NCBI RefSeq assembly: GCF_025685605.1
Contig: NZ_JAGTUT010000001.1
Coordinates: 806,001-870,000 of the forward strand
Direction: 5' to 3'
Length of the DNA: 64,000 bases
From: Granulicella arctica
GTDB taxonomy: Bacteria > Acidobacteriota > Terriglobia > Terriglobales > Acidobacteriaceae
The notes under the pieces were generated by a model that made no database searches, had not been told where the DNA came from, and saw only the letters and a list, made by a program, of their open reading frames with translations. Below, piece after piece: positions 20,068 through 48,896 of this stretch; position 1 is the stretch's first letter; each line of letters starts with the position of its first letter. The translations under genes were made by a program, and so were the position numbers.

Positions 20068-23000
20068 TTAGAACGTCAGTCTACCGCCAAGCTGTACGAG
20101 CCGCGGGAAGCCAAGCGTGCCGGTGATCTGGCCAGCACTCGAGCTGTCAACGGCCAGGTTAGGCCCATTGAACTGCGGTGTATTGAAGGCGTTCAGAGCC
20201 TCGGCCCGGAACTCGGCATTCACTCTCTCCGTCACTCTGAAGTTCTTGTTGAGGGATAGATCCGAGTTCAGGTAACCAGGTCCATAGCAGTTGACGGTAC
20301 GTGGTGTGTTGCCATACGAGTACTGTGGAGTTGCCGTGAATGCTGCCGGATTGAAGTAAGGAGTGTTGCCGCTCCCGCCAAGGCGACTTTCAGGTGATCC
20401 GCTGTGGCAAGCGGAAGCTCCTGCAACGAGGGTTGGGCGAGTTGTAGCGTTGCCATAAGCCGAGTTGACGTTGGTCGACTGAGTAAGCGGGAGCGGGGCG
20501 CCATCCTGAATTACCATGATGTCGTTGAAGCGCCAGCCACCTACAGCAAGATCGAGCCAGCGGCTGGATCCACCAAGGAACTGCTTTCCATGACCGAAAG
20601 GCAACTCATAGGTTGCAGCAATGGTAGTCCGCTTGGGAATATCGTTGATCGCGCGTGAGTACTCAGTCTTCAGGTTGTAGCTGTCCTGTGGACCATTATT
20701 GCCGGGATTGAGCGTGCTGCCTGCGCCCCACAAATTGTCCCAATTGGAAGACCATGTGAAAGCAGCCAGCAAGGTGAACCCTTGGCTGAAACGCTTCTGT
20801 ACCTTGATATCCAACGCGTTGTATTGCGTCTTGCCATCGCTCACAGAATCAGTGATTCCTTGGTACTGTGGGAACGGCCGGATCGTCTGGTTATAGGACT
20901 GTGTTCCCGTCCCCCAGAAGCCAAGACCCGCATACTTATTGGCTACCTTGGTGTCGAGTGCCGAAGCGCGCGCATAGTTGGCATCTGCAAGTTGGTTGAT
21001 ATTCAAACTATTTGGCTGATTCCGACCGTGTCCGCCTACATAGCCGAGCTTGACTGCGAAGCCGTAGGGTAGTTCTCTTTGGATATCAGCCGAGTAGGAG
21101 TCGTAGAACGGCGCCTTGCGGTTCTGGTCGATTACAGATAGCGTACTGCCGATGCTGGTGCTCAATCCAAACGTGTTTCCGGAAGCAGCGGTGCTCAAGG
21201 TCGGGAATGGATTGCTCAAACTAATTGAAGGGACTCCGCTCTGACCAGGGATGCTGTTAGTCACAACGTAACCCGGTGCAAGTGAAGCTGATCCGCTGTA
21301 TACGAACGGTTGATAGAAGAGCCCGTAACCTCCGCGTATGACGGTCTTATCGTCAATGGCGTATGCAAAGCCGGCTCTTGGCGAATACTTGTTTGTCGTA
21401 TTGCCGGTAGATGTGCGGTATCCGTTCTGACCAGCGAATTCAACACCACCCACCGCTCCGACCGAGCTGCCAAAAGCGTTGTAGCTTGCCGTCTGGTCAA
21501 AGCCGACTGCATAGTGATTGTTCCGCTCGTTTACACCAGGCTCATGCTCATAACGCATGCCAAGGTTGAGCGTCAGCTTTGGCATCACCCGCCAGTCGTC
21601 TTGCACAAAGACAGCGTTGTACTGCGTCGTGATCGCCAGCTTTGCCGGAATAATCAAAGTGCCCGATGTTGGATAGCCAAGCAACATATCCGCCGCTGTG
21701 GCACCAGTGCTTCCTGATGGATGAGCATCAGTTTTACCCGTACCTGAATTCGTCAGCGTACTGTCGAAGGTGAATGCACCGTCGGCACTGCTCAGACTGG
21801 TAAACGTGAGGCTAATCGCGCGAAAGACATAGCCTGCCTTGACATTGTGCTTGCCGAGGCTTTTTGAAACGCCAGCAACGAAATTACGTGAAAAATATAC
21901 AGCCGGACCTGAGTTCGAAGTACCTTCGCTCGAAAGACCAGAATCACCTGTGATGGCTGGAAAGCCGGTTTTCGAAAGCGCGGAGAGATAGTTGCTCGGG
22001 AAGCCCAGCGTGCTCTGATTGAATCCTTTGCTGATGTCCTGAGTATCATTCGGGAAACGATTGAACCCAAAGCCGACAGTGACCACTGTCGTCGGGTTTA
22101 CCGTAATCGTATTTTGAATACCTACTGCGTCGACCTTCCGGTAAAGCAAATAGGAAGATGAGCTTCCAGGTGCTGTCGTGAGCGAGTTGCCGCCGGGCTC
22201 CTTACTGCCGTAGTGCATGTAATAGAAGTCCGAGGCCCACTTGCTACCAAACTGATGGTCCAGCTTGCCGACGAACTCATCGGCGCGATCTCCAAGCGTA
22301 TCTTGACCGGTGAAGTTAGGCGACCCATAAGCAGCCACAGCGCTGTTTGGCGCAGGGTAGTAGCTCAGAATTGCATAGCCAACCGGGTTGATCCTGCTTG
22401 CAGGAATTGTGTTGTTCGGGAAAGGTGTGCGGGCAGTTGCAGGAGAGAGTGGGTCGTAGATGCAGCGACCTGTAACGCACACGCCGCCCGCAACCGTACC
22501 TATATCGGAAAAGTTTCCAGCGGTACCAATTGAGGTGCCTCTCTGAAGCGCGGTCGGCACCTCATATGAGTTCGATGCAGTTAGCGGAGAACGCTGCCGA
22601 TATCCTTCTTCCGTCAACCAGAAAAAGGTCTTATCTTTACCTCCGAGAACCTTGGGCAATGGTACTGGGCCGCCGATTGCGCCTACGTAGCTATAAAATT
22701 CAGCGGCACCGCGTGGTGTAGTCGGCTGCGTAATACCCGTTACGGGATCTTTATAAGCGGTGCGGTTGTTGAAGAATAGATTGGCTCCCCAATTGGTTTG
22801 CCGTGTTTCACCTTGAAGCACCCCATGCAACGAACTGGAACCGGAATGCAACGTCGTGTTGAACATTCCACCGCTCGTTCGCCCAATCTCAGCATCGTAG
22901 GTGTTGGCTTGAACCTTGACTTCTTGCACTGCTTCGATCGAAGGAATTATCACGGCACGATTGCTAAAGTCTGTGATCGGAATACCATCGACTGAATAAT

Positions 23001-32752: not shown

Positions 32753-33688
32753 TCAAGTTTGGAACCGCTTAAGGAAGCTCTCTCTCATTGCAGCATCCCG
32801 AAACGCTTCGGTGCCTCCAGGGGCAAGCGTCGACAGAGCACCCGTAATATTACCCATGTGTGCAGCCTGCGTCGGGGATGCCCCGCGCAGATATGCACTC
32901 AGAAATCCGGCGTTGAAACTGTCGCCCGCTCCGATCGTGTCTACAGGAGTTACCGCGATTCCAGGCACAAGTTCGCTGACCCCATGATGATGCACAAGTG
33001 CTCCGCGCGGTCCGCACTTCACGACGATGAGGGGCACAGCTCTGCCGAGAATACCCAGTGCCTCGTTGAGCGTCGAGGTTTTGGTCATTCGCATGGCTTC
33101 GTCTTCGCTTGGCAGGAGAATATCCACCAGGGGTAAAAGTTCTCCAACCAAGGCCCACTTATCTTCTGGATCATCATTCGTGTCGAGCGAGATGGTCAGT
33201 CCCGCCGCTCGAAGCTCGCGTAGTAGTGTCGGCAAGCCTGGGTGCAATGCAAGTTGAAGAAAGAGCGAGGAAAGATGGAAGTGCCGCGAGGATGAGAGAT
33301 ACTTTAGCGGAAGATCCTCAGCAGCCATCTCCGCCATCGTACCGAGGTAGGTGAGAATATGCCGCTCCTTTCCATGTGGCATTAAGATTGTGACACCCGT
33401 GCCAGCGCTCCCTCTACCGGCCTGCACCTCTGAAAGATCGACACCTGATTCCGCCAGGCGCGCGAGTGCTAGCTTCCCGAGATCGTCTGAACCCGTTCGC
33501 GTCACAAAACCCACTTTCATCCCGAGCGATGCGAGGTTGTGAGCAACGATGGCAGACGAACTTCCAAGCGTCACCTCGAATCCTGAAGCCAAAAGCTCAC
33601 GTTCTACAGGCATCTGCTGCGGAAGTCCGTATAGGATCAGATCGAGATTGATCTCTCCGGCTATCGTCACATCAAAGCGGCGTTCCAT
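32753..33688 (-). CDS. PfkB-family sugar kinase
   Basis: ATP-dependent kinase of the ribokinase fold, 311 residues. The N-terminal GEINLDLILYGLP, the mid-protein SLDTNDDPEDKW and the signature DTIGAGDSFNAGF (residues 250-262, catalytic Asp256) are clear. The gene is divergent from agaS with only 113 bp between, so they probably share control. In this context it could phosphorylate GalNAc/galactosamine or tagatose-6-phosphate; the sequence alone does not decide. No partner aldolase catalytic gene is in the window, which makes tagatose-6-phosphate kinase a less complete explanation. Confidence 0.92.
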   Translation of the reverse strand: MERRFDVTIAGEINLDLILYGLPQQMPVERELLASGFEVTLGSSSAIVAHNLASLGMKVGFVTRTGSDDLGKLALARLAESGVDLSEVQAGRGSAGTGVTILMPHGKERHILTYLGTMAEMAAEDLPLKYLSSSRHFHLSSLFLQLALHPGLPTLLRELRAAGLTISLDTNDDPEDKWALVGELLPLVDILLPSEDEAMRMTKTSTLNEALGILGRAVPLIVVKCGPRGALVHHHGVSELVPGIAVTPVDTIGAGDSFNAGFLSAYLRGASPTQAAHMGNITGALSTLAPGGTEAFRDAAMRESFLKRFQT

Positions 33689-33801: not shown

Positions 33802-34986
33802 GTGTGCGCTTTACTTAACCTGCTCGATCTATCAATCACCGAGCAAGAGACACGCGGCTTACTGTTCACGCCACGGGAGATCGCTCAACAACCACATACC
33901 TGGCAGAAGACAGCTCTCCTCTTCGAAGAGACTCAAGAGCAGATCCGCAGCTTCCTGGTAAATGTAGGTGTTACTAGCGCTCTCGAAATGCGCCCCGTGG
34001 TGATGCTTGTGGGTGCAGGTACCTCCGACTATATCGGCGAATCGCTTGCCCTGCTATTCCGTCAACGATGGGGCTGTGAGGCGAGTGCAGTTGCGAGCAC
34101 CGATCTGCTGCCGAGCATGGCGGAATACATCGTGCCAGGGAGACGCTACCTTTGGATCTCCTTCTCGCGTTCGGGCGACTCTCCGGAAGGTGTCAACGTG
34201 ATTGAGCAGGCGTTGGAGGTCTATCCCGACATCTCTCATCTCATCGTCACCTGCAATCCACGCTCCCGCATGGCCGCTCTTGTCGCTGGTCACGCTCAGT
34301 CTTACACCGCAGTCCTTGATGACGCCGTTAATGATCGTAGTCTGGCGATGACAAGTTCCTTCACAAACATGGTCGTCTTTGGCCAGTGCCTCGCTCATGC
34401 GTGGAGCTTTGACGAATACAAGCCTGTTCTCTCGGCAATGATTATCGCCGCACATACCTTTCTCGAAGATTCCGCCGAATTAGCTGAAAAACTTGCAACA
34501 CGCACACAGCGTCGCCTGTGCATGATTGGTTCAGGTGTACTGTCAGCTGTTGCCAATGAATCTGCGCTCAAGGTGCTTGAGATGTCCGGCGGTCAGGTTT
34601 CGACCATGTCTCAAACCTCACTTGGCCTGCGACATGGCCCTATGGCCGCTCTGAATGCAGATACAGACCTCATTTGCTTTCTCTCTTCCGATCGGACGCG
34701 TCTTCCCTACGAGGCCGACTTGATCCGCGAGATCCGGTCCAAGAAGATTACGGCTGCTCTTATTGTCGTTGGCCTGAAGTGCTGCGAAGCTGAGATTGCC
34801 CCCTTTTGTGATACCTATCATTCCATTCATGGTAATTTCGGGGACGCCTACCGCGCTCCGGTTGACGTCATCTTTGGTCAACTTCTTGGCCTCTACTATT
34901 CAATAGCTCTGGGGATGCGTCCCGATACTCCCAGCCCGGCAGGAGTTATCAACAGGGTTGTAAGTAGCTTCACAATCTATCGCTGA
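33802..34986 (+). CDS. agaS: AgaS-like SIS-domain galactosamine-6-phosphate isomerase/deaminase
   Basis: Converts galactosamine-6-phosphate to tagatose-6-phosphate with loss of ammonia. Two SIS domains are visible: LVGAGTSDYIGESLALLFRQ with WISFSRSGDSPEG in the first and CMIGSGVLSAVANESALKVLE in the second; the closing LGLRHGPMAALNADTD is typical of AgaS. The length of 394 residues is the family norm. The start is GTG at 33802 after GAGGAT. The stop is 2 bases before the gatZ-like start, so the two genes form an operon. Confidence 0.93.
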   Translation: MCALLNLLDLSITEQETRGLLFTPREIAQQPHTWQKTALLFEETQEQIRSFLVNVGVTSALEMRPVVMLVGAGTSDYIGESLALLFRQRWGCEASAVASTDLLPSMAEYIVPGRRYLWISFSRSGDSPEGVNVIEQALEVYPDISHLIVTCNPRSRMAALVAGHAQSYTAVLDDAVNDRSLAMTSSFTNMVVFGQCLAHAWSFDEYKPVLSAMIIAAHTFLEDSAELAEKLATRTQRRLCMIGSGVLSAVANESALKVLEMSGGQVSTMSQTSLGLRHGPMAALNADTDLICFLSSDRTRLPYEADLIREIRSKKITAALIVVGLKCCEAEIAPFCDTYHSIHGNFGDAYRAPVDVIFGQLLGLYYSIALGMRPDTPSPAGVINRVVSSFTIYR

Positions 34987-34988
34987 TC

Positions 34989-36275
34989 ATGACCACCACG
35001 CTACAAGAGCATCTTTTACAACAGTCAGACATGCCGCAGCCTGGTATCTGCTCGGTATGCTCTGCCCATCCTTTGGTGATCCGAGCAGCTGCCGAGCTAT
35101 CAGTCGAAAACGGCACCCTCCTATTGGTCGAAGCGACTAGCAACCAAGTCAACCAAATGGGTGGGTATACTGGAATGCTTCCCGCAGATTTCCGCGCCTT
35201 CGCGGAGCACATCGCCACGAAAGCAGGACTTGCTCCCGAGAAACTCTTGCTAGGTGGCGACCACCTCGGCCCCAATCCTTGGCGCAGTCTCCCAGCCGAG
35301 CAAGCCATGCAGCACGCCGAAACCCTCGTTACTGCGTATGTCTCTGCTGGCTTCGCAAAAATCCATCTTGATACGAGTATGTCCTGCTTTGGCGACCCTC
35401 CCGCTCTTAGCGATGAGGATGTCGCGGCTCGGAGCGTACGCCTTTGTCGTGCTGCCGAAGAAGCTCATAGAAAGTCTCCCGTACAGGGCCAAAGACCTGT
35501 CTACATCATTGGCACAGAAGTTCCAACGCCAGGGGGTGCCACGCATCCATTGGATGGCCTAGCGATCACCCCTCCGCAGGCCGCTGCTCGTACGCTGGCC
35601 GTACACCGGGCAGCCTTCCTTTCAAATGATCTCGGTGATGCCTGGACGCGCGTGATCGGATTGGTGGTTCAACCCGGCGTTGAGTTTGAACACGATAGTG
35701 TAGTTCACTATCAGCGTTCGAAAGCACGAGAGCTCATCGAGTGGCGACGCCTTCAGTCAGAGAAGATTGTCTTTGAAGCCCACTCCACCGATTACCAGAA
35801 GGCGCAAGCCTACATCGAACTCGTCGAGGACGGATTCGGAATTCTCAAGGTAGGACCAGCATTGACCTTCGCCCTACGCGAAGCGCTCGACTGCCTCGAG
35901 TCAATTGAAGCGTTGCTCATCGATCCCGGGGAACAGTCTTTCCTCAGCCAAGTCATCGAACGGACCATGCTGGCTCATCCAGAGGCTTGGCAACCATACT
36001 ACGCCGGAGACGCCCTACAGCAGGCGCTTCTGCGGCGCTTCAGTTACAGCGATCGGGTGCGGTACTACTGGCATTACCCAGATATAGCATCTGCTGTAGA
36101 GCGTCTGTTCAGCAATCTTGTTAAAAACGTCATTCCGGAGAGCATGTTGAGCCTCTACCTGCCGGCCCAATATACTCGTGTTCGCACCGGCCTCATCGCC
36201 GGTGATCCGGTTTCACTCGTCGTCGACAAGGTGAAGGACGTATTGCGCATGTACTCTAATGCATGTCGTAATTAG
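34989..36275 (+). CDS. gatZ: GatZ/KbaZ/AgaZ-family protein, possible tagatose-6-phosphate 4-epimerase
   Basis: COG4573 protein of 428 residues, annotated in enterobacteria as the non-catalytic subunit of tagatose-bisphosphate aldolase. TIM-barrel landmarks are LLVEATSNQVNQMGGYTGM, LLGGDHLGPNPW and IHLDTSMSCFGDP, then YIIGTEVPTPGGA and VFEAHSTDYQ, with His, Asp and Glu residues in positions that could bind a metal. Some members of this family are established D-tagatose/fructose-6-phosphate 4-epimerases. No GatY/KbaY catalytic partner is in the window. The gene is 2 bases downstream of agaS, so epimerisation of the AgaS product to fructose-6-phosphate is a good hypothesis. Confidence 0.88.
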   Translation: MTTTLQEHLLQQSDMPQPGICSVCSAHPLVIRAAAELSVENGTLLLVEATSNQVNQMGGYTGMLPADFRAFAEHIATKAGLAPEKLLLGGDHLGPNPWRSLPAEQAMQHAETLVTAYVSAGFAKIHLDTSMSCFGDPPALSDEDVAARSVRLCRAAEEAHRKSPVQGQRPVYIIGTEVPTPGGATHPLDGLAITPPQAAARTLAVHRAAFLSNDLGDAWTRVIGLVVQPGVEFEHDSVVHYQRSKARELIEWRRLQSEKIVFEAHSTDYQKAQAYIELVEDGFGILKVGPALTFALREALDCLESIEALLIDPGEQSFLSQVIERTMLAHPEAWQPYYAGDALQQALLRRFSYSDRVRYYWHYPDIASAVERLFSNLVKNVIPESMLSLYLPAQYTRVRTGLIAGDPVSLVVDKVKDVLRMYSNACRN

Positions 36276-36516: not shown

Positions 36517-39000
36517 CTAGCGTTGGTCGGTGCCGCTCGTGGTACCTACTTCGGCTCCTTCATCTGCGGAATACGTAACGGCTGTCATGAAGTGCGCACC
36601 TACGCTGCACCTCGCGAAGCTGATCGGCAGCAACAACGAGCGGCTTGAACCAGGGGCAATATTACCCAAAGGCAACGGCAGCGGAAGCTCCACCTTCGGC
36701 GTGCAGGGTTTACCTGCTGTCTGTAGAAAGGTGACACTATTAAGCCGCGCATCAGCTGCGGTACCTAATCCTGTATTGTTGACGCGGAATAGCCACAATT
36801 GCTGACCTCCGAATGCGACCTTGCCGGTCAACTGTCCACCTAAGGACGCTGAAGCAAGAGTTGGTGCAACCACGATGCGATCGATATCCGGCGCAGGTCC
36901 GTTCGGATTGTTCAGCACGATCGTGTTTACTCCAGCATTCAGCTGTACTGGGATGGAGGTAGTTGCGGGCTGACTGAAGGTAGTTCCGTTCAGGTCGAGC
37001 TCTGTTTGCGTGCCACCATTTACGCCCACGAATAGAGACCGTACTCCCTGCGTCTGATAGTCGATCTCCAGCTGGTAAATTCCATCTTGCAGTACAGTTA
37101 CGTTCGGAAACGTCACAGTGCCAAGGCCTCCTACGTTGCCCGCCTTCGCCAGACCGGAGGAGTAGTTGCTAAACGTCGGGCTCGTCCCTCCGCTTAGCGT
37201 GGCAAGCTCTGCCTCGTAGGTCTGCGTAGTAACATCGGGCGCCGTGCCGTTGCCGCGGATTACTATCCGATCCAAATCCGGCGGATAGCTGTACGGGTTT
37301 AGGAACTCTATAGAGTTGGTTCCATGCTCAAGATGAACGATTACCGTGGCGGTGGCTGGCTGATCAAAGCTACCACCACCCGAATCCAGCGTGCGTGGCA
37401 ACCCTCCGTTGACGCTATAAAGCACCGAGCGCAGACCCTGCGTCATGGAATTGATTTGCATGTAGTAGTTGCCATCGCGTGGCGCCTGAACATTGTTAAA
37501 CGTCACCACATTGGTAGCGCTCAGGCCATAGTTGCCGACCTTCGCCCCACCAGAGCACGCATCGCAGGAGCCTGCGGAAGCCGATCCGCCAAGCGTCGCG
37601 GCCTCGGCCTCGTAGCTTGTGCCTTCTAATGTCGGAGCATTGCCCACCGCGGACACTTTGAACATGCGCGTTCCGTGGCCGACAACGGTTGTTGTTAGTT
37701 CTTGAAGCTCGGCACCGAGGTCAAGATGGCTCCATAGGTCGCGCACCGCCGTCGCATTGCGAAAGCCGAGCAGCGTCCATGGCACGGAAATTTTAACCGG
37801 CACACTCAACATGTTCGAGACAGAGACGTAGTAACTGCCATCATCGTTGTGAATTGACCATACTTGAGTGTCACCGCCAAGCACTTGGATCGCAGGCTTT
37901 CCAGTCTGCTGCACCGCGTTGACCTCATCATTGGTCGCAAGCCGTTTTCCGGTGTCGTCCAACTTGCTCAAATCGCCGCCGAGGGATAACGGGGCATTGG
38001 CCATCGCCCAGATGGAGTACGCTGTCTGCTTCTCATCATCACTCAGACCGTCTTGCGCGCCGTTGATCACGTCGAGCGAGTCTAGATCGTTCCAACCCAC
38101 GGTCGGCCCCGCTGCAAACTGCCATGCTGAAAGCTCCCGAAATCTCTGATAAATGCGTGACCAGTCGGTCGTAGTTCCGCAATTACCCTCGCACTCTACA
38201 TCATCCTCAATGCGCCTGGCATTGGCCCACTTCTGCCAAACAGGAAGGTAGTCAGAATCAAGAGCCCACGAAATGGTGAACCAGATGGGTCGGCCCGTCT
38301 TGGCAATTGCCTTCGACCACGCTTCGACGTCGAGACGGTTGTCGATACTAAGATTGTCGTTGTACGAACCCGGCGTCACACCATCTATCTTGATGAAGTC
38401 AATGCCCCAGGACGCAAACAATGCCACAACAGAGTCCATATACTCCTGTGCGCCTGGTTTGGTGAAATCTATTTTGTAAAAGCCGAAGGCATTGCCGGCC
38501 GTCAGCGGCTGGGCCAGGATGTCCTGTAGATGGTTGGGTGTGCCGAGAATCGGGTAGTTCGCCTGCGCATCGCCCTGCTGTACGCCCGTGATCCAGTAAA
38601 TCCCAAGCTTCTGGCCGTTCGAGTGAACGTGATCCGCAAGCGCTTTGATGTTCGGAAATGTTGTGGTGTTCGGAACGGGACGACCATACGCATCGTAGCC
38701 GCCCATCCAACCCGAATCCATGTTGATGTACTGATACCCATGCGCAGTCAGGCCTGCCGACGCCATGGCATCGGACTGAGCCTGCATGTTGGCCTGTGTG
38801 AGAAAGCCGCTGGCGATCGTCTGCTGACTGAAGGAACTCCAGCCAAGGTAGGGCTTGTCTCCGGCGCCGTTTACCTGTGCGAAGGCAGCTATACCGAGGC
38901 TGAGCAGCGCAACTCCACAAGCTAGGGACCCTACAAATGGTCTGAGAAGGCTGGGCAGACGAAGCATGCAACTGGCGAGGCAACGACGGAGGTTTCGCAT
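36517..39000 (-). CDS. Exported GH27 alpha-galactosidase/alpha-N-acetylgalactosaminidase with tandem CBM-like modules
   Basis: Secreted glycosidase, 827 residues from the ATG at 39000 (in-frame ATG at 39015 and TTG at 39042 are alternatives). Signal peptide to about AFAQ. The GH27 domain has PYLGWSSF, INMDSGW, the nucleophile Asp in DFIKIDG (about residue 206) and the acid/base Asp in RRIEDDVE (about 266-267). The linker barrel ends near MFKVSA. Two similar carbohydrate-binding-like modules follow, beginning TSYEAEAATLGG and TQTYEAELATLSGG, both ending PDLDRIVI/PDIDRIVV. The tail LWLFRVNNTGLG...GNIAPGSS is a separate beta domain. It sits beside GH109 and agaS, so terminal alpha-GalNAc or alpha-Gal are likely substrates. 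Confidence 0.92.
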   Translation of the reverse strand: MRNLRRCLASCMLRLPSLLRPFVGSLACGVALLSLGIAAFAQVNGAGDKPYLGWSSFSQQTIASGFLTQANMQAQSDAMASAGLTAHGYQYINMDSGWMGGYDAYGRPVPNTTTFPNIKALADHVHSNGQKLGIYWITGVQQGDAQANYPILGTPNHLQDILAQPLTAGNAFGFYKIDFTKPGAQEYMDSVVALFASWGIDFIKIDGVTPGSYNDNLSIDNRLDVEAWSKAIAKTGRPIWFTISWALDSDYLPVWQKWANARRIEDDVECEGNCGTTTDWSRIYQRFRELSAWQFAAGPTVGWNDLDSLDVINGAQDGLSDDEKQTAYSIWAMANAPLSLGGDLSKLDDTGKRLATNDEVNAVQQTGKPAIQVLGGDTQVWSIHNDDGSYYVSVSNMLSVPVKISVPWTLLGFRNATAVRDLWSHLDLGAELQELTTTVVGHGTRMFKVSAVGNAPTLEGTSYEAEAATLGGSASAGSCDACSGGAKVGNYGLSATNVVTFNNVQAPRDGNYYMQINSMTQGLRSVLYSVNGGLPRTLDSGGGSFDQPATATVIVHLEHGTNSIEFLNPYSYPPDLDRIVIRGNGTAPDVTTQTYEAELATLSGGTSPTFSNYSSGLAKAGNVGGLGTVTFPNVTVLQDGIYQLEIDYQTQGVRSLFVGVNGGTQTELDLNGTTFSQPATTSIPVQLNAGVNTIVLNNPNGPAPDIDRIVVAPTLASASLGGQLTGKVAFGGQQLWLFRVNNTGLGTAADARLNSVTFLQTAGKPCTPKVELPLPLPLGNIAPGSSRSLLLPISFARCSVGAHFMTAVTYSADEGAEVGTTSGTDQR

Positions 39001-39565
39001 AGTTTGAGAGTCCATCTCAGAGCAGAGTATGGCCAGAAGCAATCGTTCACCAGATTAGCTACTCACTGGTGAAAAGGTAGTTTCATTAGCCGAAAGAAAG
39101 CTAGCCGGATTGCATTGCACTTGTCAAGCAGAATAGACGCGGCTGGAACGACTAGCCTGCACGTTGAGGCGTGCTGTGGATAATCAGATCAAGGCATGGA
39201 TCGATTCCGAGTGCACTTCTCACCGAAAGGATTCTTTGAAGGCTGAGTGGTATCTCGATGCTGATAACCCCTAGTGCATCTCCCTCATCTGGATTAATTC
39301 AGGATGAGGTGCGGCACCGCCACCTCGCACTAGCACGTTGTTTTTGGCCACTGCCGGCAGGCGTTCATCGATGCCCGAGTTGGTTCCCTTTTCGAATCTC
39401 TGCGCGAAAGCAGCGACCGCTGGTTCTTATCTCCGACAGAGAAACTATAGAAAGTTTCATCTCCCCGATAGCTAAACAACTCGATCCGCGCTTTGTAGTC
39501 TGGTTGGACGATTGTCCGCAGCGGCCATTAGCGAGCACCAATCGATCATTTTCTATTCCTGCACG
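39001..39565. other. Intergenic region upstream of the GH27 gene
   Basis: No convincing gene on either strand. A plus-strand open frame from 39258 runs into the end of the GH109 gene and looks random. On the minus strand TTGACA (39122-39127) could be the -35 of the GH27 promoter. GAAAGAAA at 39092-39099 (TTTCTTTC on the minus strand) lies near the expected -10. Confidence 0.5.
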
Positions 39566-40939
39566 CTACACCTGTGTTGCGATCGTTGACACCGTTCGTT
39601 GCTTCCACTTGCCTCGAGTGAAATCAGGAAAGTCGATGGGCGCACTGCCCTTACTCACCGATGCGACGCTCAGCGGAGTCACCGCAGACCAGGTCGCCGC
39701 GTCGTATACGTCCATATCGGGTGGCAGACCCTCCCGCACACACTCGAGCAGGCGATACAGCATGATGAAGTCCATGCCTCCGTGGCCACCGACCTTCTTG
39801 GCCAATTCCCCTTCTTTTTTCCAGAGTGGATGCTGGAACTGTTTGTAGTTGTCAATAGAGCCAAACGATTCATCCTTGTTCATTCCATCGAGATAGATAC
39901 GTGGTGGATAGTCCTCAAAGATGCCCTTCGTTCCGGCTATAAGGTTGATGCGGTCGTACGGGTGTGGTGTTGAAACTGTATGTTTCACCGTAATCGTAAG
40001 TCCATTTGCAGTCTTGATTAGCGATGTGTTCATATCGCCGGTCAAATAATTTTCAGCCATGCGCGGATCGCTCGGCTTAAGATGTTCTTTGCGATAGGCA
40101 TCCAGCCCACGCTGCGGTGAACTCATGGAAACAATATGTCCGAAGCGATCGCCACGCTGAATGCCCATGTAATTAGCGACTGGCCCCAGACCATGCGAAG
40201 GGTAAAGATTGCCGTCCCGCTTCGTATGTTCCGCACGTCGCCATAGTCCTTCTCCGGCATTAGAAAAAAGCTCTTCGCGCAGGTCGTGGAGGTAGGCTCC
40301 CTCACCATAAAGTAATTCGCCGAACTCTCCCGCATGAACCATCCGCAGGATCAGGGTCTCGTTATACCCATAGCAGCAGTTCTCGAGAATAATGCAGTGC
40401 TTCCGCGTCTCTTCCGAGGTGTTCACAATCTTCCAACAATCCTCAATGGTGCAAACACCCGGCACCTCGATCGCAACATCTTTTCCATGCTTCATGGATG
40501 ACACAGCCATCTCTGCATGCCACAGCCAGGGCGTAGCAACCACGACGAGGTCTATATCCTCCTTCGCCAACATTGCTTCGAACGCGTGATCACCATCGGT
40601 GTAGAGCGCCGGCTTCTTCTGTCCAGCCGCGACCACCAACGAAGCGGCATGCTCCGCCTTTGACTTGACAACGTCGCATAGCGCGACCACCTGCCCATCC
40701 GCAGCCAACAGGTTACCGAGCAAAGATGTACCTCGCCCTCCTGTTCCAATAAAAGCTACCCGCGGATTCCGCCGTGCAAACGGAACATCGATCATCGTGT
40801 TGGCGCTGCTGGCCTCGTCTGCATGCGCTACGCTGCTGAGACTGGCGCTCATCGCTGTGGCAGCACTAAGCTGCACAAATCTGCGGCGAGACCACGCCCC
40901 TGATCCTGATCCAGAAATCTGCTCGTCGTTACCACTCAT
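39566..40939 (-). CDS. GH109 alpha-N-acetylgalactosaminidase (Tat-exported, NAD-dependent)
   Basis: NAD-dependent glycosidase that removes alpha-linked GalNAc through an oxidation-elimination route. The ATG at 40939 has an excellent AAGGAGGATCCG ribosome site; 457 residues. The signal SRRRFVQLSAATAMSASL is a twin-arginine signal, as usual for GH109. The Rossmann motif IGTGGRG (65-70) comes next, then AIEVPGVCTIEDCW, LENCCYGYNE and the hallmark YPSHGLGPVANYMGI (His249), which separates GH109 from other Gfo/Idh/MocA enzymes. It faces the NagX-like gene across a 308-bp promoter region. Strong support for GalNAc as the sugar of this block. Confidence 0.94.
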   Translation of the reverse strand: MSGNDEQISGSGSGAWSRRRFVQLSAATAMSASLSSVAHADEASSANTMIDVPFARRNPRVAFIGTGGRGTSLLGNLLAADGQVVALCDVVKSKAEHAASLVVAAGQKKPALYTDGDHAFEAMLAKEDIDLVVVATPWLWHAEMAVSSMKHGKDVAIEVPGVCTIEDCWKIVNTSEETRKHCIILENCCYGYNETLILRMVHAGEFGELLYGEGAYLHDLREELFSNAGEGLWRRAEHTKRDGNLYPSHGLGPVANYMGIQRGDRFGHIVSMSSPQRGLDAYRKEHLKPSDPRMAENYLTGDMNTSLIKTANGLTITVKHTVSTPHPYDRINLIAGTKGIFEDYPPRIYLDGMNKDESFGSIDNYKQFQHPLWKKEGELAKKVGGHGGMDFIMLYRLLECVREGLPPDMDVYDAATWSAVTPLSVASVSKGSAPIDFPDFTRGKWKQRTVSTIATQV

Positions 40940-41247
40940 CGGATCCTCCTTAACAACTACAACGCAGAACTGTTTTCCGACGATCTCTCCGATAACCAAT
41001 ACAACTGCAGAGCCAACGGAACCAGACTCAAACTTACCTCTCACACCAGATACGCAAGCAATCGTAACAAATCAGTGTTTCGAATGAGACTATGTTTTTC
41101 TCGATACTTTGTCAAAACCTTACCAGGCGATGACTATGAAGACATTCGAAAGATAACGAAGCTTGCTCGTGCTAGAATCACCTACACCATTGAACCTGTC
41201 AAACGCTCGGAGCAAGCTCGGAGCGCGACTACAAACGAGGCCTTCGC
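40940..41247. other. Divergent promoter region between GH109 and NagX-like genes
   Basis: No gene. It holds a widely spaced inverted repeat, TTTCGAATG (41078-41086) and CATTCGAAA (41143-41151). Confidence 0.55.
41078..41151. promoter_or_regulatory. Split inverted repeat TTTCGAATG...CATTCGAAA
   Basis: Exact 9-bp arms whose centres are 65 bp apart, about six helical turns. Each arm contains TTTCG, the core also seen in the TTTC box before the shortened TonB receptor gene. Candidate operator pair for the DeoR-family regulator. Confidence 0.4.
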
Positions 41248-42447
41248 ATGAGCGATCAGGTAGCAACCGTAGCCATCCCCCAGCAGCGGAATATCGCAGT
41301 CGACGCCTACCGTGGGCTTGTCATGCTCTTGATGATGGGTGAGGTTCTGAACTTCGAGCACGTTGCTCTCTCTTACCCTGGTAGCACCTTCTGGCGCATT
41401 CTTTCCTTCAATCAAACTCACGTGCAATGGACTGGCATGGGCCTTCACGACATGATCCAGCCATCCTTTACGTTCTTGGTCGGCGTCGCACTACCCTACT
41501 CACTCCGAAGTCGCCAGAAGAAGGGCGAGCCGTTCAAGCGGATGCTCGGCCATACAATCTGGCGCAGCTTTCTGCTGGTCGCACTTGGCATTTTCCTTCG
41601 CTCCATCCATAGTCAAATTACGAACTACACCTTTGAAGACACCCTAACTCAGATTGGCCTCGGCTATACCTTCGCTTTCCTGCTCACCTTTGTACGACCT
41701 CGCTGGCAATGGCTAGCATTCGGCGGACTTCTCGTCGGCTATTGGCTTGCGTGGGCACTTTACCCCATCCCTGCAGCTAACTTCGACTATGCCGCCGTAG
41801 GTGTACCGGCCCAATGGCACCAGCACCTCTTCCACGGTTTTGCCGCTCATTGGAACAAGAACAGCAATCTCGGTCAGGCCTTCGACGTCTGGTTCCTGAA
41901 TCTCTTTCCCCGCACCAGTCCCTTTCTCTTCAATGAGGGTGGGTACCTTACACTGAGCTTTATCCCGACGCTCGCTACCATGCTACTGGGCCTTGCTGCT
42001 GGCCGTTGGCTGATCGCAGCTTCACCCCGCGTCCCCCTGCGGAAGTTCATCCTCGCCGCCTGCGTGTTGCTGACTGGTGCACTTTTACTTCACTTCACAG
42101 GTATCTGCCCCATCGTCAAACGCATCTGGACGCCATCGTGGACGCTTTTTAGCGGCGGCGTCTGCTTCCTCTTTCTTGCTGCATTCTCCTGGATCATCGA
42201 CGTGAAGCAGAACAAGCGACTCGCCTTTCCGCTTGTCGTCGTTGGTATGAACTCAATCGCCGCCTACCTGATGGCGCACCTCTTTGAAGACTTTGTCGAG
42301 AGCAGCTTTCGGATCAACCTTGGCATGTCCGTCTTGAACATCTTCGGCACCGCACTGGAGCCCGTGTTCCTTGGTCTTCTCACCCTCACCATCTACTGGA
42401 TCATGCTTTACTGGATGTTCAAGAACAAGGTTTTCCTTCGCATCTGA
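41248..42447 (+). CDS. NagX-like / DUF5009 polytopic membrane acyltransferase-family protein
   Basis: Membrane protein of 399 residues with about ten helices, related to heparan-alpha-glucosaminide N-acetyltransferase and to NagX of amino-sugar clusters. The start RNIAVDAYRGLVMLLMMGEV matches the family's R-x-x-x-x-D-x-x-R-G-x-x-x-x-x-M motif, then HDMIQPSFTFLVGVALPYS, and later GMNSIAAYLMAHLF. NagX-type genes commonly accompany GlcNAc catabolic genes, consistent with an amino-sugar role here; the biochemical activity of NagX itself is not settled. The DeoR-family gene follows 126 bp downstream. Confidence 0.87.
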   Translation: MSDQVATVAIPQQRNIAVDAYRGLVMLLMMGEVLNFEHVALSYPGSTFWRILSFNQTHVQWTGMGLHDMIQPSFTFLVGVALPYSLRSRQKKGEPFKRMLGHTIWRSFLLVALGIFLRSIHSQITNYTFEDTLTQIGLGYTFAFLLTFVRPRWQWLAFGGLLVGYWLAWALYPIPAANFDYAAVGVPAQWHQHLFHGFAAHWNKNSNLGQAFDVWFLNLFPRTSPFLFNEGGYLTLSFIPTLATMLLGLAAGRWLIAASPRVPLRKFILAACVLLTGALLLHFTGICPIVKRIWTPSWTLFSGGVCFLFLAAFSWIIDVKQNKRLAFPLVVVGMNSIAAYLMAHLFEDFVESSFRINLGMSVLNIFGTALEPVFLGLLTLTIYWIMLYWMFKNKVFLRI

Positions 42448-42573: not shown

Positions 42574-43407
42574 ATGATGAAGAAGGAACTTGCAGAGAAG
42601 GTTGCCATGCCCCCGGCTCGCATTGAAGAACCGGTTCACGACGGAATGATGGCTGAAGAGCGCCGCATGCAGATTCTTCAGATACTGCGTTCAGAGGGCC
42701 GGGCCAAAGTCAATGAGCTTGTCCGTCGTTTCAACACGTCGGCGGTCACCATTCGCAACGATCTCAATGAACTCGACCAACGCGGCCTCGTCCAGCGCTC
42801 ACACGGCGGTGCCGTCATCCAGGACACTGTCTTTCGCGAGTCGCCAGTCCACGAGCGTATCAAGAGTCAATCCAAAGAGAAGCAGCGCATCGGCGCTATG
42901 GCCGCCACCTTGATCCGCGAAGGCGAGACCATCATTCTTGACTCCGGCACGACCACGCTTGAGATCGCGCGAAATTTGAAAAGCATCCCTCATGTTCAAG
43001 TCATCACCAACGGGGTCAACATTGCGGTGGAGTTGCTCGGCTCGCGACATACTCAGACCATCATCATGGGTGGGAGCGTGCGCAATGATTCCGCCTCCAT
43101 CGTAGGCCGGTCCACAGAAGACATGCTCGAGCAATTCTCTGCTGACAAGCTCTTCATGGGCGGAGCCGGATGCGATCCGGACTTTGGCGTCAGTGGCACC
43201 AACCTCGAAGAAACGATGGCCAATCGTGCCATGCTCCGTGCCGCACGGGAGATCATTGTGGTCGCAGACGCCAGCAAGTTCCTCAAGCGCAGTATGAGCC
43301 TCATTGCCTCATTCTCCGAGGTAGACATCGTCGTCAGTGACGTCAGCATGTCGCAGGAGATCCAGGACCGCATCCGTTCTTTTGGCTGCAAACTTATCCT
43401 CGTCTAG
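42574..43407 (+). CDS. DeoR-family repressor (AgaR-like)
   Basis: Sugar-phosphate-responsive transcriptional regulator, 277 residues. An N-terminal extension of about 30 residues precedes the helix-turn-helix: EERRMQILQILRSEGRAKVNELVRRFNTSAVTIRNDLN, with ELDQRGLVQRSHGGA as the conserved wing. The effector domain has the DeoR phosphate-binding segment ILDSGTTTLEIARNL and the closing VVADASKFLKRSM. GGAG is 3 bases before the ATG at 42574; the second ATG is spaced better. Its position in the block and the TTTC boxes nearby make it the probable regulator of the galactosamine genes. Confidence 0.93.
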   Translation: MMKKELAEKVAMPPARIEEPVHDGMMAEERRMQILQILRSEGRAKVNELVRRFNTSAVTIRNDLNELDQRGLVQRSHGGAVIQDTVFRESPVHERIKSQSKEKQRIGAMAATLIREGETIILDSGTTTLEIARNLKSIPHVQVITNGVNIAVELLGSRHTQTIIMGGSVRNDSASIVGRSTEDMLEQFSADKLFMGGAGCDPDFGVSGTNLEETMANRAMLRAAREIIVVADASKFLKRSMSLIASFSEVDIVVSDVSMSQEIQDRIRSFGCKLILV

Positions 43408-43455: not shown

Positions 43456-45600
43456 CTAGTAATACAGCTTCAATCCAATCTGGACAAGCCTCGGATCCCT
43501 GGCCGCCGTAACGACTCCGAAGTTCGAAGAACCAAAAGTAGTCGCGTTATTTGAGTTCTGCGGGCCGGCAGCAGCAAACAGAAAGTTTGGATGGTTCAGA
43601 GCGTTATAGAACTCTCCGCGTAGCTCGAAGCGTCGAGCGTCGCCAACCGGGATCGCATCCTGCAGAAAGAGCCCGTATACCTTACGGTTGTAATCAACGT
43701 TATTGATATTGTTGATTGCACCCCCGGCTGGCTGTCCCGTCAGTAGCGTAGCCAACCCGCTTCCACCGGTACCCTGACTTCCAGGATTATCCGTAAATTG
43801 TGTGCCAAAGGTCAGGGTGCCACGCGGAGCAGCGGGTTGAAAGATCGTGAACTCTTCCGGCCGAACCTCTCCACCAAACTTGATGCTGTGGTCATGAACG
43901 ATCAGGGTGAACGTATCAGATACCGAATACGTGTTCTGGATTTCGTTCGACGGCAGGTACGTCGGGCTACCGAGCGTAGCCACATCATTGAAGAACATCT
44001 GTGGCAGGCCGCCATTGTCAGTGCCCGCCTGATACGGAACGCCCGGAAAACCGATCGTACCCGAGACGTCAGTACCCGAGTTGAACTGGAAGCGATTCGT
44101 ATGCAGCCGGTTGTAGCCGAGCCGTACTTCATTGACCCGGTTCGGAGTAAACACATGCGTCTCACTGATCGCGATCGAGTAAGCCCGATTGTCCCCTACA
44201 CCTGAAAAGAAACCACCGCCATCCGCCAGCCCCGGAAAGGGTGCCGGAATCGTCGACGGAGCCCGACTCATGCTGTAGCGATAGAAAATGTTGTCGCTAT
44301 GCGTCAACACTTGATCGACACGCACATCACCCTGGTTCGAAGTCCTCAACAACTTAGGATTCGACACGTAGTTATACCCTGCACCGTTAGCATTCGGAAG
44401 AGGATAGAGGGCTGCGAGCTTTAATCCCAGCGCATCGATGCTCGCTCTTGGGATCACGTTCGAAGGTGTTCCGTCCGCCGCATATCCAAACGGCACCCCA
44501 CAGTATCCCGTCGGGCTCGCTGCAGAAACCTGCGTCTGCTTTGTATCGAATAATTCACCGGCATAGGTCGCTCGACCGTTGCAATCCGCCACTCCAGTAT
44601 TCGAGGTCAAATCGAGTTGGCTGGAGAAATCACCGGCTCTCTGCAGCGCTGTTGGTACGAGTGAAGTATCCGTCTGTCCCTGCGATACCCGCAGCCCTTC
44701 GTAATCTGCGAAGAGAAACACCTTGTTGTGCACGATGGGCAAACCGACTGTCGCACCAAACTGATTCTGGTGATAAGGCGGCTTCGTCTGGTCGAAGTAG
44801 TTCTGCGCGTCGAACGTCTGGTTACGAAGGAACTCGTAGACTACGCCGTGAACATGATTCGACCCACTCTTCGTTGTTGCATTTACGACCGCACCCGTCG
44901 CCCGCCCAAACTCCGCCGAATACGAATCTGTCTCAACACGAAACTCTTGCAGCGCATCGACTGACGGCATCACTACGTAGTTAGCCTCGTTCAACAGGTC
45001 GGGCAGGTTCGAATTGTTATCGACGCCGTCCAGAAGAAAATTGTTTTGTAGCGATCTAGCCCCGTTTGCACTGAATCCAAAACCCTGCTCGTCACGAGCA
45101 CCGGGTTCGCTGATCGTTACCCCTGCTGTCAACTGTGCAAGTTGCACTGGATTGCGGCCATTCAAAGGCAGCGTCCGCATCGTCTCGCTATCAATCAACT
45201 GGCTGCGCTCTGAAGTTGCCGTCTCTAGCATTGGCGCACTATCGGTTACCTCGACTGAAGAACTCACAGCACCAGTGCGCAACGTCAAATCTAGCTGCTG
45301 CCGTTGCTGCACACTAAGTGTGAACGGTCCCGCAAGCGCCTGGTTGAAGCCTGATGCACTTACCGCCAGCCGATAGGTACCGATGTGCACCGGACTGATA
45401 GTCCATTCACCATTGGCCGAACTCTTGGCATGGTAAACGAAGTTAGTATCGACGTTGGTCACAGTAATTTCAGCCTGTGAAATCGTTGCACCTGTTGGAT
45501 CAGTAACACGACCGGCGACCGTGGCAGTATCGATCTGCGCCAGGAGCATTGAGCTTCCGGCGAAGAGGAGAGCAAAAAAACAAAGATTCGCGATCTTCAT
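43456..45600 (-). CDS. Oar-like TonB receptor with a large internal in-frame deletion
   Basis: The protein has 714 residues from the ATG at 45600 (AAGAAGAAT before it), whereas the other two receptors in the window have over 1120. The signal peptide, carboxypeptidase-regulatory domain (ATVAGRVTDPTGATISQAEITV), plug (LPLNGRNPVQLAQLTAG) and first half of the barrel are normal up to YGLFLQDA. At this point other receptors read QDDW followed by about 440 residues of barrel. Here the sequence jumps at about 43654 straight to the C-terminal IPVGDARRFELRGEFYNALNHPNF, so roughly 12-14 beta-strands are missing. The reading frame is intact. It may be a non-functional barrel, a shortened receptor or an assembly collapse. 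Confidence 0.88.
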   Translation of the reverse strand: MKIANLCFFALLFAGSSMLLAQIDTATVAGRVTDPTGATISQAEITVTNVDTNFVYHAKSSANGEWTISPVHIGTYRLAVSASGFNQALAGPFTLSVQQRQQLDLTLRTGAVSSSVEVTDSAPMLETATSERSQLIDSETMRTLPLNGRNPVQLAQLTAGVTISEPGARDEQGFGFSANGARSLQNNFLLDGVDNNSNLPDLLNEANYVVMPSVDALQEFRVETDSYSAEFGRATGAVVNATTKSGSNHVHGVVYEFLRNQTFDAQNYFDQTKPPYHQNQFGATVGLPIVHNKVFLFADYEGLRVSQGQTDTSLVPTALQRAGDFSSQLDLTSNTGVADCNGRATYAGELFDTKQTQVSAASPTGYCGVPFGYAADGTPSNVIPRASIDALGLKLAALYPLPNANGAGYNYVSNPKLLRTSNQGDVRVDQVLTHSDNIFYRYSMSRAPSTIPAPFPGLADGGGFFSGVGDNRAYSIAISETHVFTPNRVNEVRLGYNRLHTNRFQFNSGTDVSGTIGFPGVPYQAGTDNGGLPQMFFNDVATLGSPTYLPSNEIQNTYSVSDTFTLIVHDHSIKFGGEVRPEEFTIFQPAAPRGTLTFGTQFTDNPGSQGTGGSGLATLLTGQPAGGAINNINNVDYNRKVYGLFLQDAIPVGDARRFELRGEFYNALNHPNFLFAAAGPQNSNNATTFGSSNFGVVTAARDPRLVQIGLKLYY

Positions 45601-45640
45601 ATTCTTCTTCACCAGCAAAAGGCTAAATTTGCCTTCTGAA

Positions 45641-45696
45641 ATTTTCGTTTGTTTACGTATGCTTTGGATTTTCATGCACATCGTGCATATTGTCAA
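45641..45696 (-). promoter_or_regulatory. Promoter and operator-like sites of the shortened TonB receptor gene
   Basis: On the minus strand TTGACA (45691-45696) is followed after 17 bases by GAAAAT (45668-45673). The spacer holds a perfect palindrome, ATGCAC (45674-45679) and GTGCAT (45683-45688). Downstream of the -10 lies TTTCGTTTGTTTA (read on the plus strand, 45643-45655), matching the AgaR-type TTTC-R-TTTY-R-TTTY form. Confidence 0.5.
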
Positions 45697-45872: not shown

Positions 45873-46220
45873 ATGGGACCAAAGAAAGCAGCAGCCGGTG
45901 ACATTCTCCAGGGAACTCTAGACATGCTCATTCTTCGCACCCTCGTCACAGGCCCGGCTCACGGACACACTATTGCTCAGGTCATTGAGCGTACCTCCGA
46001 GAACGCTTTGGAGGTCGAGCAAGGCTCTCTCTATCCTGCACTCCATCGCCTCGAAGATCGTAGCCTCCTTGAATCCGAGTGGGGCATCAGCGACAACAAT
46101 CGTAAGGCGAAGTTCTATCGCCTTACCCCACAAGGCCGCAAGGAACTTATCGCCGTCACCGGCCGCTGGCGTCACATGATCCGCGCGATCAGCCTTATTC
46201 TCGGTGAGGCGAGCGAGTAA
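45873..46220 (+). CDS. PadR-family transcriptional regulator
   Basis: Small winged-helix repressor of 115 residues. LQGTLDMLILRTLVTGPAHGHTIAQVIE and the signature LEVEQGSLYPALHRLEDRSLLESEWG are typical of the PadR group, followed by RKAKFYRLTPQGRKEL. GAGGGAAC precedes the ATG. It lies 15 bp before the ADOP permease gene, an arrangement repeated many times in acidobacterial genomes, and probably controls that operon. Confidence 0.96.
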   Translation: MGPKKAAAGDILQGTLDMLILRTLVTGPAHGHTIAQVIERTSENALEVEQGSLYPALHRLEDRSLLESEWGISDNNRKAKFYRLTPQGRKELIAVTGRWRHMIRAISLILGEASE

Positions 46221-46235
46221 CAAAGGGGAAGCCAC

Positions 46236-48896
46236 ATGCATCTGCAGCGTTTCATGCACCGCCGAAGGAAAGACGCCGACCTCGCTGAAGAAATGAGCGC
46301 TCACCTCGCCTTTGAAGAGGACGCCAACACCGCCCGCGGTCTTCAGCCCAAAGAAGCTCACCGTCAGGCTCGCCTTAGGTTCGGTAATCCCCAGACCACG
46401 CGCGAACAGGTCTGGCGCTATCGCTCAATACCTTGGCTCGACGACATCGCGAGAGACCTCCGCTTCGTCATTCGCTCCCTCGCCAAAACTCCCGGCTTCA
46501 GCATCATCGCCATCCTCGTCATCGCCGTAGGCATAGGGGTCAACACCGCTGTCTTTTCCGTCATCAACACCGTCCTGCTCAAACCCCTCAGCTATCCTGA
46601 TCCACAAGCGCTTGTGCAACTCATGAACTCCGGACCGCGAGGCTCCTTTCCCGGCGCGAATGTTCCCAAGTACAACATCTGGCGTAAACAGACCAGCGTC
46701 TTCCAGCAAGTAGCCGGATACGACTTTGGCGGAGCTGGCCTCAATCTCACAGGTGGCGATCATCCCCAGCAGGTACAGGGCATTCACGTCACATCCGATT
46801 ATTTCGCCATGTTTGGCGCACCTCTCATCATCGGCCGCTCCTTCACCGCCGCTGAAGATAGCCCCAACGGTGGCCGCAACGTCGTGCTCAGCTACAGCCT
46901 CTGGAAGTCGCGCTTCGGCGGAAACCCCAACATCGTCGGCACCCCGATTCAGATCGACAACCAGCCGTACCTCGTCGTCGGTGTTGTCGGACGTAGTTTC
47001 GTCACCGATCCCGTCGGCGATCTCTGGCTCCCGTTCCAGTTCGATCCGAACTCCCACGACATGGCTCATTACTTCACCGTAGCTGCGCGGCTCAAATCTG
47101 GTATCACCATTCAGCAGGCGAACGCCCAACTCAAACTCACAGCCGAACAGTATCAGCGCGAATACGGCGGAGCGCCTGCTTCCCAGGAAGGCTTCTCCGT
47201 GATCTCCCTGCAAGAGTCGATCATCGGTGACACCCGCTACTCGCTCTTCATCCTCTTCGGTGCCGTCATCTTCGTTCTCCTCATAGCGTGTGCCAACGTG
47301 GCAAACCTTCTGCTCGCCCGCGCCTCGGTGCGCAAGCGCGAGTTCGCCACACGCGCCGCCCTGGGTGCCGGACGCGCCCAGATCATCCGCCAACTCCTCA
47401 CCGAAAGCCTTGCTCTCTCACTTACAGGCGGTCTGCTCGGCCTGATCGTCGGCTTCGTCGGCCTTCGCCTGCTACTCAACGTCAGCCCCGGAGGCATCCC
47501 GCGGCTCGGCGAAGATGGCTCCGCTGTTACCCTCGATGCCCACATCCTCATCTTCACCCTTGGCATCTCCGTACTCACCGGCATCCTCTTCGGCCTTGTT
47601 CCCGCCATCAGCGCCTCCCGCACCAACCTCGCCGCCACCCTCAACGAGAGCAGCAGCCGTTCCGGCCTCGGTCTCCGTAGCGGCAAGATTCGGTCGGGCC
47701 TGGTCGTTACCGAGATGGCCCTTGCTCTCATTCTCGTCATCGGCGCAGGCCTCCTCATCCGCACCTACCTCAAGCTCCAGGCAGTCGACCCCGGCTTCGA
47801 GACGCACAACGTCCTCACCATGGCCATGTCGATAAGCGGCGACCGCTTCCAGAAGTCTGCCAACGTCGACCAGATCATTCGCGATGGTACCGACCGCCTC
47901 AAAGCTCTCCCTGGGGTAGCCAACGCCGCCGCAGGATGCTGCCTGCCGCTCGTCGGCGGCTTCGGCGTTCCCTTCGACATTGTTGGTCGCCCCAAGGGGG
48001 CCAACCGCTCCACCGGTGGGGCGGGCTACTACTCCGTATCCGGCAACTACTTCGATGTCTTCAGAATTCCTGTCCTTCGCGGCCGCGTCTTCACCGACCG
48101 CGACAACGCCGCCTCACCCAACGTCGTCATGATCAACGAGACCATGGCGAAGCAGTACTGGCCCAACGGTGATCCCCTCAAGGATCGCCTCCTCACCGGC
48201 GTCGGCATGGGTCCTATCTTCGCTGAGCCTGCTCGACAGATCATTGGCATCGTCGGCGACACCCATGATGGCGCCCTTAATGAGACCCCCCGCCCAACCA
48301 TGTACTTTCCCGTAGCCCAGATGCCCGATGCCGAGACCGCCCTCAACTCCCGCGTCGCCCCGCTCTGGTGGGCTATACGCACCAAGGGTGACCCGCACGA
48401 CGTAGTGGCTTCCATCACTGCCGCTCTTCGCGACGCCACCGGAGGCCTTCCCGTAGCCCACGTCCTGACAATGGATGAGATCGTCCTCCATACCACCGCC
48501 CGCCAGCGGTTCAACATGCTCCTCCTCATCATCTTCGGAGCCTCCGGTCTTCTCATGGCCGCCATCGGCGTCTACGGCCTCATGGCCTACTCCGTTCAGC
48601 AGCGCACGCAGGAGATAGGCATCCGCATGGCGCTCGGCGCACAGGCCTCCTCCCTTCGCAACATGGTCATCCGCCAGGGCATGACGCTGGCCCTTCTCGG
48701 CGTAGCGGTCGGCATCGCCGGAGCATTCTGGCTTACCCGCCTTCTCGCCAGCCTTCTCTTCGGCGTTACGGCTTGGGACCCTGCTGCTTTCCTTGCCACA
48801 CCATTTCTTCTAACTGCCGTCGCTCTTCTCGCCATCTGGATACCCGCCCGCCTCGCGACTGATATCGACCCCATGACTGCCCTACGCTCCGAGTAG
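46236..48896 (+). CDS. ADOP-family (MacB-like) ABC transporter permease
   Basis: Orphan duplicated permease of 886 residues. A soluble N-terminal helix pair (LQRFMHRRRKDADLAEEMSAHLAFEED) is followed by a first MacB unit: helix FSIIAILVIAVGIGVNTAVFSVIN, a periplasmic MacB-PCD domain, and three helices (residues about 340-450). A second such unit covers about residues 490-886, ending with IPARLATDIDPMTALRSE. No ATPase gene adjoins it, as is usual for ADOP members. The role is likely mechanotransmission or export of an unknown compound. The opposite strand also has long open frames, an effect of GC-rich codon use. Confidence 0.95.
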   Translation: MHLQRFMHRRRKDADLAEEMSAHLAFEEDANTARGLQPKEAHRQARLRFGNPQTTREQVWRYRSIPWLDDIARDLRFVIRSLAKTPGFSIIAILVIAVGIGVNTAVFSVINTVLLKPLSYPDPQALVQLMNSGPRGSFPGANVPKYNIWRKQTSVFQQVAGYDFGGAGLNLTGGDHPQQVQGIHVTSDYFAMFGAPLIIGRSFTAAEDSPNGGRNVVLSYSLWKSRFGGNPNIVGTPIQIDNQPYLVVGVVGRSFVTDPVGDLWLPFQFDPNSHDMAHYFTVAARLKSGITIQQANAQLKLTAEQYQREYGGAPASQEGFSVISLQESIIGDTRYSLFILFGAVIFVLLIACANVANLLLARASVRKREFATRAALGAGRAQIIRQLLTESLALSLTGGLLGLIVGFVGLRLLLNVSPGGIPRLGEDGSAVTLDAHILIFTLGISVLTGILFGLVPAISASRTNLAATLNESSSRSGLGLRSGKIRSGLVVTEMALALILVIGAGLLIRTYLKLQAVDPGFETHNVLTMAMSISGDRFQKSANVDQIIRDGTDRLKALPGVANAAAGCCLPLVGGFGVPFDIVGRPKGANRSTGGAGYYSVSGNYFDVFRIPVLRGRVFTDRDNAASPNVVMINETMAKQYWPNGDPLKDRLLTGVGMGPIFAEPARQIIGIVGDTHDGALNETPRPTMYFPVAQMPDAETALNSRVAPLWWAIRTKGDPHDVVASITAALRDATGGLPVAHVLTMDEIVLHTTARQRFNMLLLIIFGASGLLMAAIGVYGLMAYSVQQRTQEIGIRMALGAQASSLRNMVIRQGMTLALLGVAVGIAGAFWLTRLLASLLFGVTAWDPAAFLATPFLLTAVALLAIWIPARLATDIDPMTALRSE

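Follow-up and report, generated by a model that had tools for sequence, protein, structure and literature searches.

The window analysed here, a 64,000-nucleotide stretch of the Granulicella arctica genome, carries a TonB-dependent receptor gene with an internal deletion, beside a set of genes that resembles a sugar utilisation cluster. The features that bear on the receptor are as follows:

43456–45600, minus strand: TonB-dependent receptor gene carrying the internal deletion; translation from the ATG at 45600 yields 714 aa
43656–45600, minus strand: N-terminal part kept, with a signal-like N-terminus (by eye), CarboxypepD_reg at aa 27–108, plug at aa 132–237 and the barrel start from aa 242
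43655–43656, minus strand: deletion joint; the left part ends at 43656 with CTGCAGGATG and the right part begins at 43655 with CGATCCCGG, the two directly abutting
43456–43655, minus strand: C-terminal barrel part kept, ~65 aa, ending in IGLKLYY as in the intact orthologue L007
45668–45696, minus strand: sigma-70-like promoter match TTGACA-17-GAAAAT, a consensus match only
42574–43407, plus strand: DeoR-family regulator, best NCBIfam match AgaR at 247 bits, just under the cut-off of 260
41248–42447, plus strand: NagX-like membrane N-acetyltransferase, 128 bits, below the cut-off of 480, with no Pfam match
39566–41044, minus strand: GH109-like oxidoreductase-type glycosidase
36517–39042, minus strand: alpha-galactosidase-like protein (Melibiase_2) with CBM35
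34989–36275, plus strand: AgaZ/GatZ tagatose-bisphosphate aldolase subunit, 588.1 bits against a cut-off of 568.8
33802–34986, plus strand: SIS-domain isomerase resembling the AgaS family, 273 bits against an NCBIfam cut-off of 529.2, which it does not reach

The receptor lies in an open frame of 746 aa (43456–45696, minus strand) that contains no stop or frameshift, and around the joint the protein reads YGLFLQD-A-IPVGDARRFELRGEFYNALN. CarboxypepD_reg (PF13620) is present at 69.8 bits against a cut-off of 32.3, and the plug (PF07715) at 23.9 bits, which is exactly its cut-off of 23.9 and therefore only just reaches it; with these two domains in place, the central claim of an earlier sequence-only reading, an in-frame internal loss that keeps the N-terminal domain and plug, holds. 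The barrel profile PF25183 (OMP_b-brl_4) is matched at positions 1–376 and 788–838 of 838 only and is thus incomplete, and the paralogue at 20068 matches the same profile over positions 2–838. The C-terminal strand ends in an aromatic residue (IGLKLYY; by eye), and this ending is identical in L007. That reading had also described the promoter as looking intact; what stands of this is a single putative promoter, agreeing with the consensus at 10 of 12 positions, with one such match found against a mean of 0.3 in shuffled sequence.

Taken together, the genes between 32753 and 43407, which include a sugar-kinase-like frame at 32753–33688, look like an aga-type galactosamine/N-acetylgalactosamine utilisation cluster, several of whose members score below curated cut-offs. 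DNA matching the regulator and the NagX-like gene also adjoins the receptor in two intact orthologues, L007 and L005. The substrate of the receptor, guessed from these neighbours, would be galactosamine- or N-acetylgalactosamine-containing glycans. On the strand opposite the receptor, immediately upstream of it, a PadR-type regulator is followed by a MacB/FtsX-type permease gene (45873–48896).

Six near orthologues set the size of the loss. The segment from LQD to GEFYN spans 443–445 codons in these genes and 16 in the window receptor, corresponding to a loss of 427 codons (1,281 bp) relative to five of the six and of 429 codons relative to the sixth. The joint, at 43656/43655, falls within 43640–43670, where the sequence-only reading had placed it; its estimate of 440–445 lost residues had been measured against the paralogue at 20068, a yardstick that overstated the loss by ~15 residues and that the orthologues replace. 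The closest comparisons are with Granulicella sp. dw_53 (L007), to which the window receptor is 87% identical over aa 12–648, and Edaphobacter lichenicola M8UP22 (L005), at 84% over aa 1–648. Both orthologues share CarboxypepD_reg, plug and a PF25183 barrel with the window receptor, whereas the 427 barrel residues are missing in the window copy only. The gene is thus disrupted relative to its intact orthologues, as a pseudogene or loss-of-function allele would be.

A search of public bacterial genomes returned 18 related loci, in Acidobacteriota. The left breakpoint is reached by 17 of them, and all 17 read through it uninterrupted, so the deletion is not chance variation; 16 of these continue to the C-terminus, which lies 1,127–1,147 codons beyond the point where the match begins. 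Contig ends account for the remainder, cutting L008 after the breakpoint and L022 before it. When a full-length query was run against the 61 other genomes of the genus, it returned, among the matches listed, 11 further loci at 51–100% identity, some of them the same genes as in the 18-locus set; all are intact, with frames of 1,151–1,211 aa against the 746 aa of the window receptor. The other 50 genomes held, among the matches listed, paralogues at ~40% identity or less. The intact version that the sequence-only reading had proposed to look for in related strains is found at the 17 related loci that reach the breakpoint and at the 11 same-genus loci.

The joint itself appears private to this genome. 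A probe of 151 bases over the joint, searched against 398 family genomes with two candidates per genome scored among the matches listed, matched something in 14 of them, and a match across the joint occurred in the genome of origin only; in the 13 others, every match lies on one side. Three of these (G012, G039 and G249) match both sides separately, 1,281–1,283 bases apart, the distance seen in an intact gene. In G007 and G008, which both hold intact orthologues, the probe gave no match, and the absence of the joint elsewhere is accordingly weak evidence beyond near relatives.

With one genome per species and a single strain compared, an artefact has to be weighed: the gene could truly be full length, with 1.3 kb dropped in assembly, or the deletion could have arisen during laboratory passage of the isolate. 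Assembly collapse needs repeats, and in the genome's own sequence the 150 bp to the left and the 150 bp to the right of the joint share no direct or inverted match of 8–12 bp. The joint region, moreover, has one match in the genome and sits inside a 4.7-Mb contig of a 9-contig assembly. Given that the joint lacks repeats and is single in the genome, collapse seems unlikely, as far as sequence can tell. A deletion that arose in the laboratory would be compatible with all of this evidence against collapse; we nevertheless regard the artefactual explanation as a whole as unlikely.

The same absence of repeats bears on how the deletion came about. In the six relatives, short matches are scattered around the two sites, direct ones of 6–8 bp and inverted ones of up to 9 bp, with none placed at both breakpoints. 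Recombination between repeats, or between similar hairpin-coding DNA, was considered and set aside for want of a linking match of 8–12 bp, although the sharing of a single base cannot be judged without the lost sequence. No second copy of the lost segment was found in the rest of the genome at the identity of an orthologue; the receptors that score next best there are 36–39% identical. The deletion probably arose by repeat-free (illegitimate) recombination.

We then considered the age of the lesion. A tree was built from 25 proteins, of which 24 are different, after four duplicate or incomplete rows had been left out. The window copy clusters there with six intact relatives at a support of 96/95, and its end branch, at 0.11, is at the median. 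A codon model covering 8 taxa was fitted to 687 of the 714 codons, with 22 N-terminal codons, 3 at the joint and 2 gapped ones left out. Omega is 0.036 on the window branch against a background of 0.039 (LRT 0.07, p 0.79), and a window branch that is neutral throughout is rejected (LRT 50.5). The 64 C-terminal codons, taken separately, agree with this, at 0.020 against 0.030 (LRT 0.41) and an LRT of 13.8 against neutrality. When the window branch was divided into a constrained stretch and a neutral one following it, the best fit had no neutral stretch; one of ~0.04 substitutions per codon, about the most that fits, was 1.92 units worse (interpolated), on branch lengths that are rough because synonymous sites are saturated. 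No further inactivating lesion was seen in the frame and no relaxed selection in the 8-taxon codon model. With omega like the background and room for at most ~0.04 neutral substitutions per codon, little or no time without constraint has passed. These estimates fit a recent deletion, which would leave neither further lesions nor a mark of relaxed selection; they are no proof of function, as a young lesion and a kept function would look alike, and we take the lack of other lesions to reflect youth rather than function.

What remains of the barrel was approached through structure models. AlphaFold2 reached a mean pLDDT of 46.7 for the truncated protein (21 sequences) and 41.8 for the intact L007 (20 sequences). 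Counted by hand on the intact model, with short and doubtful strands left out, the barrel has 22 strands, and the breakpoints fall within strand 10 (646–664) and strand 20 (1077–1089). The net loss would be ~10 of 22 strands, leaving ~12, counts that are provisional given the low confidence of both models. An alternation scan returned 37 peaks beyond residue 255, exceeding the 22 strands counted by hand and leaving that count unconfirmed. The truncated model shows no convincing barrel, and the intact control is no higher in confidence; one strand is drawn across the joint (aa 635–652), followed by others at 656–665 and 705–713. In Foldseek searches against the PDB, the intact model, despite its low confidence, gave 188 matches at E <= 0.001, the best 50 of which are all TonB receptors, with BtuB, FecA, FoxA, OprC and FhuA among the proteins matched. 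The truncated model gave 11 at that threshold, none of them a TonB receptor and most of them small beta domains akin to the N-terminal one; YddB (E 2.0e-3) and FhuA (E 4.6e-3) follow lower down. A comparison of models this weak is suggestive at best and falls short of showing that the truncated protein fails to fold.

One reading of these data is that the product is a functional reduced barrel, in which an even number of strands (~10) has been excised and part of strand 10 fused to part of strand 20, so that the protein would fold as a ~12-strand barrel, its N-terminal domain and plug lying in the periplasm, and serve as a small pore, a binding protein or a sensor. Several observations agree with this. 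The frame and the C-terminal IGLKLYY are kept, the strand predicted at the joint runs on across it in the truncated model, and the net loss on the full-length model, being an even number, would preserve the up-down order of the strands. Alternation also seems to be kept, with shifts of -2, 0 and +2 scoring better than -3, -1, +1 and +3, and the codon model gives no sign of relaxed selection. On the other side, the count of 22 omits short and doubtful strands and rests on models of mean pLDDT 42 and 47, the deletion occurs in one genome only, and a plug built for a 22-strand barrel would not be expected to fit within 12. An exact hairpin-for-hairpin register, which looked convincing by eye in the alignment, failed when the profile was compared with itself: breakpoints at equivalent hairpin positions were unremarkable in all eight variants (z 0.39–1.20), with ranks of 106–259 of ~830–850 with L007 and 124–344 of ~990–1,010 with L036, and the shift of -2 beat the observed one. 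We consider a functional reduced barrel quite unlikely, and very unlikely the specific case of a natural, apparently recent strand deletion in which excising ~10 strands from a 22-strand barrel, with even parity, would leave a foldable ~12-strand barrel with a full plug.

The frequency of damaged receptors in this and neighbouring genomes sets the background for the lesion. Searching the 5.85-Mb genome of origin with PF25183 gave 69 matches, read as 65 genes, a lower bound in that 65 were scored of 97 first-look candidates. Three of the 65 are not full length, namely the window gene and those at C1:2391141-2392556 and C1:1338102-1341631. Among three neighbours, whose rows were read by hand, broken receptors number at least five in G012, at least three in G008 and at least two in G003. 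All four genus genomes scored thus hold dozens of such receptors, with a few broken in each, and the breakage of a receptor is routine on these counts. The decayed receptors of the four genomes resemble the window receptor in no longer being full length and differ from it, among the matches listed, in being split between frames, carrying stops or missing one end, a comparison in which the two of this genome were also inspected as sequence. Among those matches, no short frame other than the window gene covers both ends of the profile, though smaller in-frame losses would not show here.

The two other broken receptors of this genome have features of their own. The one at C1:2391141-2392556 (L061:1394-3165) retains the C-terminal half of the barrel only (profile 363–838); upstream of it, on the other strand, lies a short open frame that by eye resembles the end of a tyrosine recombinase, and the gene looks as if it had been cut by a mobile element. 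The one at C1:1338102-1341631 (L062:1579-5231) is spread over two frames, of 591 and 762 aa, that overlap, as a single frameshift could produce.

Could the truncated product have a use other than transport? The N-terminal domain and plug are present and might act as a soluble or half-folded decoy, competing for TonB or binding ligand; alternatively, the allele might be kept because losing surface loops removes a receptor for phage or bacteriocin. Beyond the presence of these two domains such roles are conjecture, no result of the analysis points to them, and we regard them as very unlikely.

The window gene is most likely a recently disabled receptor and not a new kind of protein. We think it probable that an acidobacterial TonB-dependent receptor beside an aga-like cluster, once full length at ~1,150 aa, suffered one private, recent, in-frame deletion of 1,281 bp and became transport-null. 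An intact receptor gene would have undergone this deletion by illegitimate recombination; since ~10 of the 22 strands would be gone, the plug could not sit in a normal barrel and the truncated product would no longer transport, the fragment being cleared by periplasmic quality control or lying unused. Several findings count against a transport-null receptor: the loss is in frame, which has a chance of one in three; the C-terminal end, which BAM would recognise, survives; and there is no second lesion, the kept codons evolving without relaxed selection. As an ordinary receptor lesion the deletion would matter little, given dozens of receptors and a few broken ones in each genus genome. If the product folds, it would give a clear example from nature of a large barrel losing strands and would make possible a direct test of barrel shrinkage by hairpin excision.

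Solved structures provide a limited point of reference, as none is close by sequence to the PF25183-type receptors searched against the PDB; with two receptors of this genome and one orthologue profile as queries, no barrel relative was found, the sole matches (E 0.13 and 0.45) being to the N-terminal domain. Oar of Myxococcus xanthus and FhuA-type TonB receptors are 22-stranded barrels with a plug (PMC11658791). The window receptor has this plan of plug and barrel in common with them and differs in matching about half of the barrel profile (376 plus 51 of 838 positions). A published survey reports that it found no clear case of strand deletion (PMC6340704), which is why a folded product would matter. 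The same survey aligns strands 10–19 of 22-stranded barrels with strands 4–13 of 14-stranded ones (PMC6340704); by count on the modelled strands, the loss from within strand 10 to within strand 20 would come close to this module shared by 22- and 14-stranded barrels.
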